Positions 28,747 through 39,269 of a DNA stretch of 64,000 nucleotides are shown here, piece after piece. Both the position numbers and the translations under genes were made by a program. Source of the DNA: Olsenella sp. KGMB02461 (GTDB lineage Bacteria; Actinomycetota; Coriobacteriia; Coriobacteriales; Atopobiaceae); NCBI RefSeq assembly GCF_012584445.1, contig NZ_JABAHI010000008.1, positions 372,001 to 436,000 of the forward strand. The letters are read 5' to 3'. Position 1 is the stretch's first letter. Each line of letters begins with the position of its first letter. The notes under the pieces were generated by a model. The model was not told the origin of the DNA. It did not search any database and saw only the letters and a program-made list of their open reading frames with translations.

Positions 28747-29421
28747 ATGTCACGGCCACAACTGAGTCATCGCGTTCAACAGATCTATGACTTTCTGGTT
28801 ACCTATAGCCAAGAGCATGGGTATCCGCCCTCTGTGCGCGAGATTGGCGCTGCGGTAGGCCTCAAATCTCCAAGCACCGTGCATATGCACCTGCAAACCT
28901 TGGAAGATCTCAACCTCATTAGGCGCACCGCCAATAAATCCAGGACTATCGAGATCATCAACGGTGCCGAGAAGAGCGCACCTCAACCGGTTGCACCTCA
29001 TTCTTCCCATGCACAGGTAACGGTGGAACACGATCCCAATGATGGAGTCATTAGACTTCCAGTGGTGGGTCGTGTAGCCGCAGGCATGCCCATCCTGGCT
29101 GAGCAAAACGTCGAGGACGTGCTGCAGCTTCCCACCAGCGTAGTGGGCGATTCCAGCTCCTTTGTGCTGCGTGTGCGCGGAGAGTCCATGATCAATGCCG
29201 GCATCTTTGACGGCGACTATCTGGTGGTCTCTGAGGCGCATGACGCAGTGAACGGCGAGATCGTTGTGGCTCTTATCGATGATGGCGCTACCGTAAAGAC
29301 GTTCTATCGCGAGAAGGACCGCTGTCGCCTGCAACCTGAGAACGACTCTATGGATCCCATCTATGTGCGCGAGCCCCATATCATTGGCCGTGTCACGGCT
29401 CTCATGCGCTCCATTGTCTAA
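28747..29421 (+). CDS. lexA: LexA repressor
   Basis: A 224-residue SOS repressor. The N-terminal winged helix contains YPPSVREIGAAVGLKSPSTV; the self-cleavage site is the Ala-Gly in GRVAAGMP; the serine is in RVRGESMINAGIFDGD and the lysine in IDDGATVKTF. On DNA damage, RecA filaments trigger its cleavage. Start ATG 28747 follows GGCAGGAG. The last base of its stop is the first base of the next gene. Confidence 0.97.
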   Translation: MSRPQLSHRVQQIYDFLVTYSQEHGYPPSVREIGAAVGLKSPSTVHMHLQTLEDLNLIRRTANKSRTIEIINGAEKSAPQPVAPHSSHAQVTVEHDPNDGVIRLPVVGRVAAGMPILAEQNVEDVLQLPTSVVGDSSSFVLRVRGESMINAGIFDGDYLVVSEAHDAVNGEIVVALIDDGATVKTFYREKDRCRLQPENDSMDPIYVREPHIIGRVTALMRSIV

Positions 29422-30242
29422 TGGCCCCTCAGGATCATGCCTTAAAAACAAAGAAAGCTCTAAACCTAACACCTTCATCTAGCCCTACCCATGAAGGCTG
29501 GTCACACCCCTCTAGCCGTGTTGGCCTCTTTGACGCGGTGAGGGGTTTTTCTGTGGCCTCCATGGTGCTCTTTCACCTTTGCTATGACTTGGTAGTGCTT
29601 ACCTCGGTCTCCTTGCTCTGGTTCAAGCCGCCCTTTGAAGATATTTGGCGCTCCTCTATCAGCTGGACCTTCCTTTTGGTCTCTGGATGGATGTGCTCTT
29701 TTTCCAAGAACAATCTCACTCGCTCGCTGCGATACCTGGCGGTAGCAGCTGTCATCTTTACAGTGACTTCTCTGGCTGCAGTAGATGACCCCATCAACTT
29801 TGGCATCATCTTCTGCATAGGTGGAGCTACCTTGGTAGACGCACTGTTAGAACGGTTAGACCTAGAGCCTTCTGGGCCTCTAGCTGCCATCCTGCTATTT
29901 GCGCTCTTCCTTGCTTGCCTCCATGTGCCTCAGGGTAGCCTTGGACTCCTTGGCTTCACAGTAGAGCTTCCCGCAAGTCTTTATGCCACCCCTTGGTTTT
30001 CTTGGGCAGGGTTTCCGGGTCCTGGCTTTATCTCTGGCGATTACTATCCGCTTATCCCTTATGCCTTGATCTATGGCGCAGGCATTGCGTTGGGTCGCAC
30101 ATTCTTGCGCACAGGATATCCAGCATGGTTCTTACGAGCACAATGCCGCCCTCTCCAATGGATTGGACGGCATGCGCTCGCTATCTATGTAGCGCACCAG
30201 CCACTTATTCTAGGGTGCCTTATGCTCGCGGGACTGTTGTAG
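29421..30242 (+). CDS. HGSNAT/DUF1624-like membrane acyltransferase
   Basis: A 273-residue membrane protein with about seven helices. RVGLFDAVRGFSVASMVLFHLCYDLV near residue 33 is characteristic of the DUF1624 / heparan-alpha-glucosaminide N-acetyltransferase catalytic family, and RHALAIYVAHQPLI ends the domain. It probably acylates a sugar or lipid at the membrane; the substrate is unknown. ATG overlaps the lexA stop (TAATG), implying co-translation. It is convergent with hflX, four bases away. Confidence 0.75.
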   Translation: MAPQDHALKTKKALNLTPSSSPTHEGWSHPSSRVGLFDAVRGFSVASMVLFHLCYDLVVLTSVSLLWFKPPFEDIWRSSISWTFLLVSGWMCSFSKNNLTRSLRYLAVAAVIFTVTSLAAVDDPINFGIIFCIGGATLVDALLERLDLEPSGPLAAILLFALFLACLHVPQGSLGLLGFTVELPASLYATPWFSWAGFPGPGFISGDYYPLIPYALIYGAGIALGRTFLRTGYPAWFLRAQCRPLQWIGRHALAIYVAHQPLILGCLMLAGLL

Positions 30243-31657: not shown

Positions 31658-32626
31658 TTAGGAAGTCTCATTCACATTATGATAGGTTGCCAATATTAAG
31701 TCACGTGCCTGGGGAATAGAAAGTTGCTCGAGATCGAGTGTTGCGGCTCGCCCATCTCGCCTGAGCCAGGAGAGTTGACGCTTGGCATACCTGCGGGTAT
31801 TGCGCTTGATGAGGTCTCTGGCCTCATCCATGGTGATTTGACCCTCTAGTGCGGAGAGCACCTCTTTGTAACCTATAGCCTGTCGCGCAGTGAGGTTTTG
31901 CTGGATTCCTTGAGTTTTAAGGGTCTGTACCTCGTCTACCAGACCTTGGTCAAACATCTGATCCACACGGGTGTCTATGCGCGAGTAGAGCGTTTCTCGG
32001 TCGCGGACTACGGCATAGATGCGACACTGATAGTGTGGGTCGCGATGTCTGAGATGCTGCGTGCGCTCCCCATAGCTCTCCCCCTTTTCGTGGAGCTCCA
32101 GCGCACGGATGACCCGTCGCGTGTTGTGAGGGTGAATGAGCTGGGCACTTTTGGGGTCGACAGCATTCAAGAGATTCCAGAGGTGGTCTTCGCCGCTTTG
32201 AGCCAGAAGGGCCTCGTATTTTTGGCGCTCAGAAGAGACCGAGCCCCCCTCAGGAAAGTCCATCTCGTCGATTACGGCATCCAGATAGAGTCCGGTGCCC
32301 CCACAGAGCACCGGGGTAAGGCCAGCAGCCAATTGCCGATCTATCTCACACCGGGCATCCTTTTGGAAGAGTGCCACCGAATATTCCTCATAGGGCTCCA
32401 CCACGTCTACCATCTTGAGGGGCACTTTGCGCTCTACTTCAGGAGTTTTGGCAGTGCCTATGTCCATCCCTCGATAGACCTGCATGGCATCGATGGAAGT
32501 GACGCAAGTGTCGAGAACCTGCGCCACCTCATCGGCTAGCGCCGACTTTCCCGAAGCCGTAGGCCCCACGATGGCAATCATTGGCTGCGAGGTTACAGGG
32601 GCTTGTGGCAAGATGGCACTATCCAT
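31658..32626 (-). CDS. miaA: tRNA dimethylallyltransferase MiaA
   Basis: A 322-residue enzyme that adds the dimethylallyl group to A37 of tRNAs reading UNN codons. The P-loop is GPTASGKSAL, followed by DAMQVYRGMDIGTAK and GGTGLYLDAVID. Its ATG overlaps the miaB stop, so translation is coupled. MiaB, which modifies the same base next, is the upstream gene. Confidence 0.96.
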   Translation of the reverse strand: MDSAILPQAPVTSQPMIAIVGPTASGKSALADEVAQVLDTCVTSIDAMQVYRGMDIGTAKTPEVERKVPLKMVDVVEPYEEYSVALFQKDARCEIDRQLAAGLTPVLCGGTGLYLDAVIDEMDFPEGGSVSSERQKYEALLAQSGEDHLWNLLNAVDPKSAQLIHPHNTRRVIRALELHEKGESYGERTQHLRHRDPHYQCRIYAVVRDRETLYSRIDTRVDQMFDQGLVDEVQTLKTQGIQQNLTARQAIGYKEVLSALEGQITMDEARDLIKRNTRRYAKRQLSWLRRDGRAATLDLEQLSIPQARDLILATYHNVNETS

Positions 32627-33993
32627 CAGCGAGGCTCGCTGGCCACAGTGCCGCGCAAATACCAGGTGCGCGCATCGTCTACATGGACGTCCACAATGGA
32701 GCCGATGTAGTCGCTGGCACTACGCCCTTGAGGAATGGGGAAATGCACCGTGACGTTTTCTGGGCTATGGCCCACCAGTACGTCCGCCGACTTCTTAGAG
32801 GGACCTTCTACGAGCACCGCCACATCGCGACCTGCTTGCGCCTGGTTATACTGCCAGCTCATCTCTTGCACCAGCTTGGCCAGCCGGTCGAAGCGCTCCT
32901 GAATCACCTCGCGAGGCGTAGGATCATCAATCTTTGCAGCCGGCGTGCCTGGACGTTTGGAGTAGATGAAGGTATAGGCGCTAGAGAACCCTGCCTCACG
33001 CACAAGCGAGAGGGTATCCTCAAAATCCTGGTCGGTCTCCAGAGGAAATCCCACGATGAGATCTGTGGAGAGGGCGATATCTGGCATAGCCTTCTTGATG
33101 CGGCCCACCAAGCCGAGAAACTCTTCCCTCGTATACTTGCGATTCATACGCCGCAGCACGTCAGTGGATCCCGATTGAGCAGCAAGATGAAGCTGAGGCA
33201 TCACTGCGGGGGTTTCAGCCATGGCGGCAATAGTTTCGTCGGTAAGGTCTTTAGGATGGGAGCTTGTGAAGCGGATGCGATCGATGCCGGTCTTGCCCAC
33301 TGCCCTTAATAGCTCTGCAAAGCGAGGCTCGCCGTAGAGATCACGCCCGTAGGAGTTGACGTTTTGACCCAACAAAGTCACTTCGCGCACGCCATCGGCT
33401 ACCAGAGAACGTATCTCGTCCACTACTTCCTCAAAAGCGCGACTGCGCTCTCGTCCGCGCACATAAGGCACGATGCAGTAGCTACAAAAGTTGTTGCAGC
33501 CAGTCATGATGGGCACCCAGGCATGGAACTTCTGTGCGCGATGGCTGGGAAGATCAGTAGAGAAAGACTCATAGGGCTCTTCGACGTCCACCTCGAGGTG
33601 TTCGCCTTTCTCGGCACGTGAAGCCTCGATGAGGCGAGGAAGCTCAGAGACTGCTTGGGTTCCAAAAACCACGTCTGCATTGGGGGCAAACGACCTCATG
33701 GCTTCGCCCTCGCGCTGAGCGATGCATCCACCTACGCACACCGTACGTAAACCCGAGGGAGGCACCGGAGCGCTCACCATAGAAGAGATTTGCCCCTGAA
33801 GGTGGGTATCGGCTTTTTCACGCACACAGCAGGTCATGTAGACCACAATATCTGCATCCTCAGGCTCAGAAACCTCCAAGCAGCCGCAGGAATCCAAAAG
33901 ACCTGAGACGCGCTCGGAATCATGGAAGTTCATCTGGCAGCCAAAAGTGCGCACATGATAGGTAAGGCCGGACAGCGAGCGGTCTAGCAACAA
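32626..33993 (-). CDS. miaB: tRNA-2-methylthio-N6-dimethylallyladenosine synthase MiaB
   Basis: A 455-residue radical-SAM methylthiotransferase. The N-terminal cluster cysteines are in FGCQMNFHDSERV, TCCVREKAD and GGCIAQREGE; the radical-SAM cysteines are in CNNFCSYCIVP; a TRAM domain ends the protein. It adds the 2-methylthio group to i6A37. Translation starts at TTG 33993, eight bases after GGGAGG. It overlaps miaA. Confidence 0.96.
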   Translation of the reverse strand: MLLDRSLSGLTYHVRTFGCQMNFHDSERVSGLLDSCGCLEVSEPEDADIVVYMTCCVREKADTHLQGQISSMVSAPVPPSGLRTVCVGGCIAQREGEAMRSFAPNADVVFGTQAVSELPRLIEASRAEKGEHLEVDVEEPYESFSTDLPSHRAQKFHAWVPIMTGCNNFCSYCIVPYVRGRERSRAFEEVVDEIRSLVADGVREVTLLGQNVNSYGRDLYGEPRFAELLRAVGKTGIDRIRFTSSHPKDLTDETIAAMAETPAVMPQLHLAAQSGSTDVLRRMNRKYTREEFLGLVGRIKKAMPDIALSTDLIVGFPLETDQDFEDTLSLVREAGFSSAYTFIYSKRPGTPAAKIDDPTPREVIQERFDRLAKLVQEMSWQYNQAQAGRDVAVLVEGPSKKSADVLVGHSPENVTVHFPIPQGRSASDYIGSIVDVHVDDARTWYLRGTVASEPR

Positions 33994-34007: not shown

Positions 34008-34325
34008 TTAGGCGTTGAGGATGCTCACGCCGGGCTCTGAGAGAGGAGTTTCTTCGGCAGAGATCCTGTGGACAAAGACAGCGATGCGAATAGCAGTGCG
34101 CGAGTCTCCGTTGATTTGAATGTCGGAAAACGAGGGAGCAATGGAGATATCGAGGCCTACTGGAATGAGAAACCCTCGTGCGATGGCCACTGCCTTGATG
34201 GCCTGATTGACCGCGCCTGCACCTACTGCCTGCAGGTTTACAGGTACGCCGTCCTTGACCATACCGGCGATGGCGCCGGCCACCGAGGCCGGGGAAGATT
34301 TACTGGAGACCTTGAGAAAATCCAT
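34008..34325 (-). CDS. spoVS: Stage V sporulation protein S homologue (SpoVS)
   Basis: A 105-residue Alba-like protein. MDFLKVSSKSSPASVAGAI and QAVGAGAVNQAIKAVAIARG are nearly diagnostic of SpoVS. In Bacillus it affects sporulation; here it is most likely a nucleic-acid-binding regulator. ATG 34325 follows AGGAG; the frame from 34409 is a random extension. It is third after rny and a GHKL ATPase, and the terminal segment (HRISAEETPLSEPGVSILNA) is longer than usual. Confidence 0.93.
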   Translation of the reverse strand: MDFLKVSSKSSPASVAGAIAGMVKDGVPVNLQAVGAGAVNQAIKAVAIARGFLIPVGLDISIAPSFSDIQINGDSRTAIRIAVFVHRISAEETPLSEPGVSILNA

Positions 34326-34470
34326 GTCGATGGCTCCTGGATGTTGTAGTGCGGATGTCGTTCGTTGGTCGTGTGAACCGTATCTCTTAAGCATGGTACC
34401 CGAGCGCAAGACCCAAAGGAGACAGTCCTGGCAGCTCCCGTCAAATATACGCAGGAGCCAGAGGACGCGC

Positions 34471-35547
34471 TTATCCCTCGTCCTCTTTTGCGATATGGAA
34501 GGTGACTGTAATCCTATCCTTGCCGCATCGCACTGTAGGCTCGTCTTCCAGAGCTACATAGTAGCGATCAGAGATAAACGAGAAAGCCCTCTCCATACGC
34601 CGCGAGAACTCTTTGGAATCCCCTTCGTCGAGCTTGAGTCCCCGATGATCCTTGGAGAGGTCCACCGGAGAGGAAGCTTGGCCCTTGTCAGTGCCATGAG
34701 TGAGCCTTGCCATCACAGAGCGTACGGGGCGAATGGCTCCAGAAAGAATGCGATGGGCAGTACGCTCTGAGAGCTCCAGGCCGAGAGTGGATGCAACCTC
34801 CACCAGCTCTTTTGCGTCCACTGCTGCATAGAGACGCTCCAGCAGCGGAAGTGAGTCGATGCTGTCAAGGAAGAGCAGCGAGGCATCATCCATGGCGCTG
34901 GCCATACGGCTCCGAATAGTTGCCACGACCTCTGCAGGAGAACCTAGGAACACCGTGACACGATGACGCTCTTCGAAGGCAAACTCGCAGCAGGTACGAG
35001 GGACGTTATGAGGTCCCCGAGCTACAGTGGTCTCATCGTCCTCTGTGGTAGAAAGCGTTGGCCACGTAGACTGATCTGCTCGTTCAGGAAGTTCTGGGCC
35101 TGTGATCACCTCGATTGAAGTACCCATGCGCTCGCCGGAAGCCCTTACACGGGCGATACGGGCATTCTGCCGAATGGAGAAAAGCGCCATGCCGCGACCG
35201 TGCACACCCCATCGATCCTCGTGAATCGAGTCTAGCTTGGAGGTCACACGAGCTTCAAAGATGCGTTCCTGCATAGACAAGGGCACACCGGAACCGTCAT
35301 CGATCATAGTGAGATGGCGCTCGTCACCTTGCTTAGTGGTGGCGAGATAGATCTGGGTGGCGCCAGCATCACGGGCGTTGCGCAGAAGCTCCACTACCAC
35401 GTCTTCCACACAGCGGATATCATGACGTGCTTGACGACGCTCGGCCTCGTCTACTACCAGGCGCACGTAGCCCGCACCAAAGTTTTCTTCGACGCGGGCT
35501 ACAGACTCCCCTGTGACGTCTGCGATGAAATCGCTGAGATCTCCCAT
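34471..35547 (-). CDS. GHKL (Hsp90/MutL/HSP-like) ATPase of unknown role
   Basis: A 358-residue protein with an N-terminal HATPase domain: N box VVELLRNARDAGA (residues 51-63), G1 IDDGSGVPL (82-90) and G2 GVHGRGMALFSIR (114-126). The C-terminal half is not recognised. There is no kinase dimerisation helix or transmembrane segment, so it resembles MutL/Hsp90-type machines more than sensor kinases. It is three bases after rny and before spoVS. In Bacillus that slot holds the phosphodiesterase YmdB. A role linked to RNase Y or RNA decay is inferred from position only. Confidence 0.7.
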   Translation of the reverse strand: MGDLSDFIADVTGESVARVEENFGAGYVRLVVDEAERRQARHDIRCVEDVVVELLRNARDAGATQIYLATTKQGDERHLTMIDDGSGVPLSMQERIFEARVTSKLDSIHEDRWGVHGRGMALFSIRQNARIARVRASGERMGTSIEVITGPELPERADQSTWPTLSTTEDDETTVARGPHNVPRTCCEFAFEERHRVTVFLGSPAEVVATIRSRMASAMDDASLLFLDSIDSLPLLERLYAAVDAKELVEVASTLGLELSERTAHRILSGAIRPVRSVMARLTHGTDKGQASSPVDLSKDHRGLKLDEGDSKEFSRRMERAFSFISDRYYVALEDEPTVRCGKDRITVTFHIAKEDEG

Positions 35548-35550
35548 GGG

Positions 35551-37113
35551 CTACTTGGCAACGTCGATTGCGCGAGATTCGCGGATGACGACCACGCGCA
35601 CCTGGCCGGGATACTCCATCTCGTCCTCGATCTGCTTGGCGATGTCATGGGCAAGCACTACTGCCTCGGCATCGGAGATCTTCTCAGGCTCAACCATGAC
35701 GTGAAGCTCACGGCCTGCCTGCATGGCGTAAGTGCGCTCAACGCCCTCGTGGGCATTGGAGATTTCCTCGAGCTTCTCAAGGCGCTTGATATAGGCCTCG
35801 GCAGATTCGCGCCGCGCGCCAGGACGAGCAGCACTGATGGCATCTGCAGCCTGCACCAACACATCCAGCACGGTCTCAGGCTCAATATCTGCATGGTGAG
35901 CCTCGATAGCATGGACGATCTCAGGCTTCTCGCCATATTTGCGCGCAAGGTCAGCGCCAATTACGGCATGAGGGCCTTCCACTTCACGATCGATGGCCTT
36001 GCCGATGTCATGAAGCAGACCAGCACGCTTCGCCATTGCAGGATCGCTGCCAAGCTCGGCTGCCATAAGCGAGCAGAGCTCAGCCACCTGCTTGGAGTGC
36101 TGAAGCACGTTCTGCCCATAGGAAGTGCGATAGCGCAAAGCACCCAAGGTACGAACAAGCTCAGGATGGAGATCATGGATACCTAGGTCGAAAGCAGCTT
36201 GCTCGCCGGCGTCCAAGACACGCTGGTTTACCAGCTTCTCCGCCTTGGCATACATCTCCTCGATGCGCGCAGGATGAATGCGGCCATCTGCTACCAGGTT
36301 TTCCAGCGCCACACGGGCAGTTTCGCGACGCACGGGATCATAGCTAGAAAGGCCAACGCTCTCTGGAGTGTCATCGATGACCAGCGTTACGCCAGAGATC
36401 TGCTCAAAGGAGCGGATGTTGCGGCCTTCGCGGCCAATGATGCGACCTTTGAGATCATCGGAAGGAATGTGCACCGTGGTCACGGTGATCTCAGAGGCTT
36501 GATCTGCTGCACAGCGTTGAATGGCTGTAGAGATGATCTCTCGAGCAGTTTTTTCTGCGGTAGCACGAGTGCGCTGCTCGCTCTCACGAAGGATTTGCGC
36601 CTCTTCACGCACTGTATCCTTGCGAACGCGCTCCAGAAGCTCATCATGCGCCTCGTCTTTGGTGAGGGCAGCAATGCGCTCGAGCTCAGTGGACTGCTGG
36701 GCTACCAGTTTTTCCACGTCATTGCGGCGACGATCCAGCTGGCTCTGACTCTCAGAAAGCTGATGCTCTTTGCGATCCAATGCATCGTTTCTGCGGTCCA
36801 GCGACTCCTCACGCTGCATAATGCGAGATTCGAGGTCACGAAGCTCGCCTTTGCGTGCGCGATTCTCAGCCTCTTGGGCCTGCTTTAATTTGAGAATCTC
36901 TTCTTTTGCAGAGAGAATGGACTCTTTCTTTTGGGTCTCTGCATTTCGGGATGCCTCGGCTTCAATTTGAGTAGCACGACTCTCTGCATCGCGCACTTTT
37001 TGATTAGCCTCGATCACCTTGGCATTGGTCTTGCCATTAGCAAGATTCCAGGCCACCAGGGCGCCTACAACGATCCCGACGATGCAGAGTACCACGGTGA
37101 GTACGATGTCCAT
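35551..37113 (-). CDS. rny: Ribonuclease Y
   Basis: A 520-residue membrane-anchored endoribonuclease that starts mRNA decay. Order: one N-terminal helix (VLTVVLCIVGIVVGALVAW), a long charged coiled coil (about 30-200), a KH domain (IPSDDLKGRIIGREGRNIR) and an HD domain (LLHDIGKAIDREVEGPHAVIG) with the metal-binding His-Asp. It leads the rny, GHKL ATPase, spoVS unit. Confidence 0.97.
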   Translation of the reverse strand: MDIVLTVVLCIVGIVVGALVAWNLANGKTNAKVIEANQKVRDAESRATQIEAEASRNAETQKKESILSAKEEILKLKQAQEAENRARKGELRDLESRIMQREESLDRRNDALDRKEHQLSESQSQLDRRRNDVEKLVAQQSTELERIAALTKDEAHDELLERVRKDTVREEAQILRESEQRTRATAEKTAREIISTAIQRCAADQASEITVTTVHIPSDDLKGRIIGREGRNIRSFEQISGVTLVIDDTPESVGLSSYDPVRRETARVALENLVADGRIHPARIEEMYAKAEKLVNQRVLDAGEQAAFDLGIHDLHPELVRTLGALRYRTSYGQNVLQHSKQVAELCSLMAAELGSDPAMAKRAGLLHDIGKAIDREVEGPHAVIGADLARKYGEKPEIVHAIEAHHADIEPETVLDVLVQAADAISAARPGARRESAEAYIKRLEKLEEISNAHEGVERTYAMQAGRELHVMVEPEKISDAEAVVLAHDIAKQIEDEMEYPGQVRVVVIRESRAIDVAK

Positions 37114-37421: not shown

Positions 37422-37435
37422 CTATTCCTCTGATT
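37395..37435. repeat. 12-bp inverted repeat spanning the recX stop
   Basis: AATCAGAGGAAT (37395-37406) and ATTCCTCTGATT (37424-37435) are perfect complements; the second arm encodes the last residues of RecX. There is no U-tract, so it may protect the transcript 3' end. Confidence 0.6.
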
Positions 37436-38162
37436 CTTCTTCCACGCGACGAGAGGCGCACTGGCGAGCGATTCCATAATCAAATCCTCGAGAGACTAAG
37501 AATCTCACAAGCTTTTGATAGCCGTTCTTCTCTGAGACAGGCTTTCTAGCCACCAATTCCCAGGCCCGCTCAAGCTCTTCCCCTTGAGCAAAGTACTCTT
37601 CTGGCCACCCCGAAACAGACTCTGCTGAGATGCCTCGACGGGCAAGCTCGCGCTTGATGCGCCCCCGGCCCCAACCGATAGAGATCTTGGTGCGAATGAA
37701 GGTCTCTGCAAAACGATCGTCATCTAGCAGACGACCCCGTGTGGCACGCTCCACTACATCTTCTATGGCAGAAGCAGAATACCCTGCTCTTTGGAGTCGC
37801 TCCTGAGCTTCTTTTGTTGCGTAATCGCGACGGTTCACAAGATCTGTGAGCCGTTTAGCCGCACAGGAGATCTGGAGGCCCTCAAGGACTGTCTCCATGG
37901 CATGAGGACCAGTAGGGACCCCATCTTCCTTCACTTGCTTGAGAAGAGCCTTGGCTACATCCTTAGGCACGTTAAAACGGCATGTACTCTGAGTGCCTTC
38001 TACATCCTCCCCCACCACAGAGACAAGCGGGGCCCTAGAAAAGCTCACGGCCTCTTTGGGGGGAAAGTATAGGGTCCAGCTGGCCCCAGAGCTCGAGAGA
38101 CGCTCGATTCTCTCTGCTTTCGCGGTCTCTGCGCTCTGGGAGCTCCCTGTGCCATAACGCAT
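37422..38162 (-). CDS. recX: Regulatory protein RecX
   Basis: A 246-residue RecX, which modulates RecA filaments. The core has VNRRDYATKEAQERLQRAGY, LLDDDRFAETFIRTKISIGWGRGRIKRELARRGI and a third tandem helical repeat. An N-terminal extension of about 100 residues is longer than in most RecX proteins. It starts four bases after recA, so both are made from the same LexA-controlled message. Confidence 0.93.
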   Translation of the reverse strand: MRYGTGSSQSAETAKAERIERLSSSGASWTLYFPPKEAVSFSRAPLVSVVGEDVEGTQSTCRFNVPKDVAKALLKQVKEDGVPTGPHAMETVLEGLQISCAAKRLTDLVNRRDYATKEAQERLQRAGYSASAIEDVVERATRGRLLDDDRFAETFIRTKISIGWGRGRIKRELARRGISAESVSGWPEEYFAQGEELERAWELVARKPVSEKNGYQKLVRFLVSRGFDYGIARQCASRRVEEESEE

Positions 38163-38165
38163 GGA

Positions 38166-39269
38166 TTACTCGTCTGCCTTTGCTTGGGCATCCTTGGAAT
38201 CAGAAGCCGCAGGAGCCTCTTCGTCATCAAACTCCAGGTCACAAGCTATACGGACCTTGTGATCGATCTCATCGAACAGATCCGGGTTAGTGCGCAGGAA
38301 CTCCTTGGCTGCCTCGCGACCTTGACCCAGACGCTCACCTTCATAGGTGTACCAGGCACCGGATTTGTTGACCACATCATAGTCAACTGCCATGTCCAGA
38401 GTGGAGCCTTCTTTGGAGATGCCGGTGCCATACATGATGTCAAATTCGGCAGTTTGGAAGGGAGGAGCCACCTTGTTCTTGACTACCTTGACGCGCACGC
38501 GATTGCCCACTACCTCGCCATCTTTTTTGATGGAGTCGATCTTGCGGATGTCCATGCGCACCGAGGAGAAGAACTTGAGCGCACGACCACCGGTGGTGGT
38601 CTCAGGGTTGCCAAACATCACGCCGATCTTCTCGCGCAGCTGGTTGATGAAGATGCAAGTGGTGTTGGACTTGCTTAGAGAGCCGGCGAGCTTGCGTAAA
38701 GCCTGGCTCATAAGTCGAGCCTGAAGGCCCACCGTAGTCTCGCCAATCTCGCCCTCGATCTCTGCGCGAGGCACCAGGGCTGCCACAGAGTCGATGACGA
38801 TGACATCCACAGCGCTAGAGCGTACCAGCATGTCGCAGATCTCCAATGCCTGCTCGCCGGTATCTGGCTGAGAAATGAGCACTTCATCGATATCCACGCC
38901 AATGCGAGCGGCATACCCGGGATCCAACGCATGCTCAGCATCGATAAAGGCCACTACGCCGCCTTGGGCTTGGGCCTCTGCCAGAATCTCCAGCGACAGG
39001 GTGGTCTTACCGGAGGACTCCGGACCATAAATCTCTACGATACGGCCACGGGGAACACCGCCAATACCCAGAGCGGCATCCAGAGCGATGCAGCCGGTAG
39101 GAATAGCCTCTACCTCTAAATCATTGCCTGAATCGCCAAATTTCATGATGGCGCCGGCGCCAAAGCGCTTGCGGATCTCAGCCGTAGTAGCCTCAATAGC
39201 GTGATCGCGCTCTTCGCCCGTAGTACGCTCTGCCACTGTCTTGCTGAGAGCGGTTTTGTTTTTAGCCAT
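38166..39269 (-). CDS. recA: Recombinase RecA
   Basis: A 367-residue recombinase. Walker A is [13 protein letters not shown], the L1/L2 region has [14 protein letters not shown], and the C-terminus is acidic ([12 protein letters not shown]). It pairs homologous DNA and triggers LexA cleavage. AAGGAG precedes ATG 39269. A perfect LexA box lies 42 bases upstream, with phased A-tracts further up. Confidence 0.98.

Follow-up and report, generated by a model that had tools for sequence, protein, structure and literature searches.

What does an ATPase do between the genes for RNase Y and SpoVS? In many bacteria RNase Y initiates the decay of mRNA; its known partners are, to our knowledge, from Bacillota. 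In the window (the whole 64 000-nucleotide stretch of Olsenella sp. KGMB02461 DNA analysed here), a reverse-strand gene at 34471..35547 starts with ATG, runs without an internal stop and encodes a putative GHL-type ATPase of 358 aa. Upstream of it on the same strand lie rny (35551..37113; RNase Y, 520 aa, 697 bits against TIGR03319 and above the cut-off), recX (37422..38162) and recA (38166..39269); downstream on that strand lie spoVS (34008..34409; PF04232, 2.5e-33) and miaB (32626..33993). Exactly 3 bases separate the rny stop codon from the ATPase ATG, and the conserved part of spoVS begins at about 34325, so that the gap on that side is ∼145 bp. An earlier note on this DNA had described a GHKL ATPase between RNase Y and SpoVS, three bases from rny, with complete ATP-binding boxes and an unfamiliar C-terminal half; the open reading frame and its family matches bear out each of these points.

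The protein belongs to the GHKL superfamily. HATPase_c (3.1e-8) and HATPase_c_3 (2.6e-8) score above the Pfam cut-offs on residues 46–147 only, and they matched 37/37 family members at E ≤ 0.1. The ATP-binding domain (residues 46–150) follows a conserved N-terminal stretch (residues 1–45; EExxGxGxVRL..EAERRQA.HDI) and has a complete N box (E53..R56-N57-A-R-D60-A61), G1 box (D83-D-G85-x-G87) and G2 box (G114-V-H-G-R-G119). Among 75 aligned sequences from the phylum, E53, N57, D60, D83, G85, G87, T102, G117 and G119 are each conserved in at least 97% (E at position 53 in 97%), and R56, R59, A61, H116 and L122 each in at least 96%. GHL enzymes, the subgroup of the GyrB, Hsp90 and MutL type, use a glutamate at the position of E53 as their general base. 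Here it stands four residues ahead of the N-box asparagine, N57, as in GHL proteins, and aligns to the E of the MutL motif “..vvkELvenslDA”, where the histidine kinase AdeS has A; this MutL-type residue in the catalytic position marks the ATP site as GHL-type rather than that of a histidine kinase. Hydrolysis and ATP-driven dimerization are predicted from the sequence. Strong homologues in 243/246 genomes of the class, 40–68% identity to 36 other diverse members and a dN/dS of ∼0.05 relative to another genome of its genus (purifying selection) together mean that the gene is not a chance reading frame. It is single in its own genome, where its sole match is itself. The form in a 1.5-Mb genome (G240; L092:6585-7820) has 411 aa with an insertion ahead of the GPHN motif; RNase Y and RecA of that genome are likewise unusually diverged.

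Behind the ATP domain come a linker (residues 151–190) and a family-specific C-terminal part (residues 190–358) that contains S260-x-R262-xxx-R266. E155, Q159 and N181 of the linker, together with S260 and R266, are identical in 75/75 aligned sequences, and R262 is present in 99%. The C-terminal ∼200 aa have no accepted family match in Pfam or NCBIfam, and the ATPase as a whole is without a family of its own in the copies of these libraries that were searched. GHL proteins of the GyrB, Hsp90 and MutL type carry a second, transducer domain that is S5-like and has a lysine touching ATP; sequence searches of the stretch that follows the ATP domain found neither an S5-type nor a MutL C-terminal region. 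Comparison of the C-terminal part with solved chains gave nothing convincing (best E 0.2). AlphaFold2 models were of low confidence for the whole protein (10 sequences, mean pLDDT 44, pTM 0.35) and for its C-terminal half (pLDDT 49, pTM 0.31), too poor for a fold search.

The gene is core to Coriobacteriia, which are common gut bacteria, with a strong homologue in 243/246 genomes; a raw tally of 245 includes weak matches to other ATPases in G162 and G125 (22 and 19 bits). These two genomes and G041 make up the exceptions. G125 and G041 are 74% and 59% complete, and rny was not found in them either. G162, by contrast with them a single 1.4-Mb contig that is 99% complete, has rny and has lost the ATPase: 211 bp separate rny from spoVS, and no trace of the ATPase was seen there (L115, G162:C1:1012000-1031000). 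It offers a natural deletion for comparison; recX was not matched there at the threshold used. In the phylum Actinomycetota, a profile search (E ≤ 1e-10) found the ATPase in 160/396 genomes, including all 38 Coriobacteriia of the sample, the remaining positives belonging to other classes; among the positives, 35 genomes of one family (f35) carry a diverged and shorter form. RNase Y is found in 263/396 genomes (TIGR03319, E ≤ 1e-50) and, by comparison of the two tables, in 157 of the 160 with the ATPase. The other three (G468, G564 and G579) are 67–79% complete, and in each the contig breaks off on that side of the ATPase where rny would lie.

About 106 genomes (263 minus 157) have rny and no ATPase. 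A wider profile found no homologue in the slot at 20 such loci (best E 0.74; one locus ends right after rny). The gene next to rny is then miaB, spoVS, one for a PHP-domain protein or an unknown one. Three of the genomes with rny and no ATPase have, between rny and miaB, members of an unnamed family of 309–332 aa that has no accepted Pfam family (L174:4128-5126, L175:3817-4746 and L176:4738-5667); the L175 protein is 32% identical to that of L176 (1e-39) and 27% to that of L174 (2e-21). Presence and absence of the ATPase follow whole families, so the independent events may be few. Carriage on mobile elements was considered and rejected: IMG/VR had no relative of the ATPase among 21 pattern matches, phages gave a single weak match to query residues 14–131, and the one plasmid hit is a 900-kb Collinsella record with the usual chromosomal block and a MutL, the 14 other rny-bearing plasmid records having no match. 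These plasmids are the one informative sample from beyond Actinomycetota. No literature on this ATPase was found, as judged by titles and the starts of abstracts, and a text search of a paper on bacterial MORC/MutL homologues (PMC2292703) gave no match.

Where its place could be read, the ATPase sits behind rny on the same strand almost without exception. Among the matches listed, there are 124 ATPase places (f35 and G572 left out), 117 of them with a listed rny place; 115 of these 117 pairs are adjacent on the same strand with rny first, at a median match-to-match gap of 24 bp and a largest of 648, and the two others (G485 and G594) are both at contig ends, the G485 ATPase contig still carrying the tail of rny (L163). 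Small frames in the larger gaps may be genes. Outside Coriobacteriia, the nearest of the tested genes upstream is rny in 38/38 loci of 8.6–16 kb, 11 of them from f35. Within the class, the ATPase is present in 40/40 loci (L070–L109), and rny directly precedes it among the tested genes in 39 of them; in the exception (G103, L100), ∼760 bp without rny lie between the ATPase and the contig end, and the rny match of that genome stops 8 bp short of the end of another contig, so the pair is split. A set of 70 short Coriobacteriia loci, in which some genomes occur twice and that of the window is counted, has 67 adjacent pairs; the other three are two weak matches to other proteins and one contig edge (G017), where the ATPase is truncated at the contig start and rny was not found in the genome. 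The split in G103 aside, the conserved adjacency to rny expected of an RNase Y-associated factor was thus observed, across several actinobacterial classes. We conclude that the gene is real, unnamed in the libraries searched and linked to rny; its function we infer.

The linkage is to rny and not to SpoVS or RecA. The earlier note had asked whether the order rny-ATPase-spoVS is conserved, and the first half of it holds while the second does not hold throughout: SpoVS is missing from 11/11 genomes of f35, f44, f6 and f8 that keep rny and the ATPase, genomes that were picked because their locus lacks it and of which three are only 82–85% complete. SpoVS was found in the three others searched (the genome of the window, G197 and G162). 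RecA occurs in 372/396 genomes of the phylum, as against 160 for the ATPase. Two findings could have spoken against the note's proposal: loss of linkage to rny, which is instead conserved in 115 of the 117 listed pairs, and a close homologue with an unrelated function, of which none was found, MutL sharing the ATPase domain only.

The reading that we prefer, at a probability of about one half, is that this stand-alone GHL-type ATPase is a putative partner that works together with RNase Y. In proteins of the GHL fold, the dimer of N-terminal domains closes on ATP binding and reopens on hydrolysis, and from the fold we would expect the same cycle here. The C-terminal part, in the region of S260, R262 and R266, might couple this cycle to RNase Y itself, its RNA or one of its specificity factors, for instance the RicT-like PSP1, and ATP would thereby set where, or with which partner, the membrane-bound endonuclease cuts. 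The tight spacing behind rny may keep ATPase and RNase Y in step. The ∼106 genomes with rny and no ATPase and the loss in G162 speak against an obligate partnership. As a factor that might put RNA decay under energy-driven control, the ATPase is a concrete candidate.

The main rival is an old but unrelated neighbour, a DNA-related, MutL-like ATPase of repair or recombination. Its gene would have entered a stable block, passed on by vertical descent, at some time in the past and come to lie between rny and spoVS without any functional tie to RNase Y; we consider this unlikely, though more plausible than any of the other alternatives. The gene order is indeed old. Collinsella aerofaciens has cinA-recA-recX-rny-ATPase-spoVS-miaB-miaA-hflX in RefSeq, where the ATPase is named “ATP-binding protein” and nothing more, and recA, miaB, miaA and hflX largely travel together with the locus, so that the adjacency of rny and ATPase partly reflects slow rearrangement. 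(Between lexA and hflX, several Coriobacteriia loci have a membrane acyltransferase-like protein, at 29421-30242 in the window; RefSeq names the Collinsella gene in its place heparan-alpha-glucosaminide N-acetyltransferase.) The best solved relatives of the ATPase are MutL N-terminal domains (7.1e-8), recA and recX lie close upstream, and lexA lies past hflX. Rates of change do not single out rny: over 69 loci, the partial correlation of pairwise distances is 0.286 for ATPase and rny, as compared to 0.245 for recA and 0.235 for miaB, values too similar to indicate special coupling. Substitutions at invariant positions of RNase Y in G162, which lacks the ATPase, gave nothing specific either; that RNase Y is unusually diverged, but so is its RecA, and rate coupling was abandoned because RecA shows as much divergence in the genomes concerned. 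Against an unrelated neighbour stand the disparity between recA and ATPase counts given above, the presence of rny in 157 of the 160 ATPase genomes with the rest cut off at contig ends, and G459, in which recA is more than 6 kb from rny and yet the ATPase is still behind rny; the lack of a detectable MutL C-terminal or S5-type region also fits poorly with it.

A nucleic-acid-binding regulator seems improbable. Here the C-terminal motif LGLxxSxRTxxRxLxGE would form a helix-turn-helix (HTH), and the protein would exert ATP-dependent control of transcription, perhaps of its own operon, or bind RNA. Weak matches to HTH models in Pfam point this way, HTH_32 in 3/40 members (best 0.0067) and two Tc3 models, HTH_17, LacI and an Xre-like model in one member of 40 each (0.03–0.2), and the low-confidence structure models place helices at residues 245–254 and 261–268. 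However, these matches are weak and single, the pLDDT values of 44 and 49 are too low to lean on, and the turn exceeds that of a typical HTH by two residues; such matches are insufficient to assign a fold to the C-terminal part. A role as an ATP-driven regulator alongside SpoVS, in cell division or developmental control, is very unlikely, and we reject it: spoVS does come next in most Coriobacteriia loci, and 63 of the 67 adjacent short loci have it within 1.5 kb, but at L105 it is ∼1.9 kb off, G162 retains it despite the loss of the ATPase, and the 11 genomes without SpoVS that keep rny and the ATPase largely refute the idea. A degenerate histidine kinase or anti-sigma-type kinase, to which the HATPase_c match and weak NCBIfam histidine kinase matches might point, is hardly credible given E53, the nearby H42 that is variable (Q in several members) and the absence of HisKA, receiver and sensor domains from the Pfam matches.

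The protein can finally be set against known systems. The MutL/Mlh N-terminal ATPase shares the N, G1 and G2 boxes, the catalytic-type glutamate and a MutL-like lid, and it is the best PDB and NCBIfam match of our protein; unlike MutL, the latter has its fixed place behind rny, the similarity stops at about residue 150, and on the full-length MutL model TIGR00585 it scores 40.8 bits, below the curated cut-off of 180. With MORC and related GHKL ATPases the resemblance is weak (0.013) and confined to the ATP site, and our protein has no S5 domain match. None of the defence families fits well, the best in PADLOC being TmtA (2.3e-4, 16.9 bits, residues 50–236).

The earlier note had also placed the gene in the slot of the YmdB phosphodiesterase of Bacillus, and this is true of the one Bacilli record examined, Cytobacillus spongiae, with the order recA-rny-TIGR00282-spoVS. 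YmdB (TIGR00282) of Bacillota is nevertheless a different protein family, absent from the 25 NCBIfam families listed for the ATPase, and TIGR00282 had no match in the genome of the window at E ≤ 1e-30. The hint that one protein replaces the other is weak: the slot is shared, but the two are not mutually exclusive. YmdB-like genes occur in 87/396 genomes of the phylum (0/38 Coriobacteriia) and, by table comparison, coexist with the ATPase in 43 of its 160 genomes (f28 and f35, the f35 matches falling below the curated cut-off), on another contig or far off. Replacement as a strict rule is accordingly rejected.

RicA-RicF-RicT, the Y-complex of RNase Y specificity factors in Bacillota, has no sequence relation to the ATPase that we could see. 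In B. subtilis, RicA and RicF are required for a stable RicT–RNase Y complex (PMC10470536). In 34 genomes hand-picked for diversity, not at random, PSP1 (RicT-like) was found in 24/25 with the ATPase and 4/9 with rny and no ATPase, and Com_YlbF (the RicA/RicF family) in 0/25 and 1/9. PSP1 without Com_YlbF also occurs in controls such as Thermotoga, so the absence of RicA/RicF is not special to genomes with the ATPase; RicT may act without RicA/RicF in Actinomycetota that have it. It is a long shot, but in many Actinomycetota the rny-linked ATPase might hand PSP1 (or RNA) to RNase Y, as RicA-RicF do in Bacillus, and so make site-specific mRNA cleavage ATP-gated. The Y-complex would be the functional analogue of the ATPase, should the latter prove to be a factor of RNase Y.
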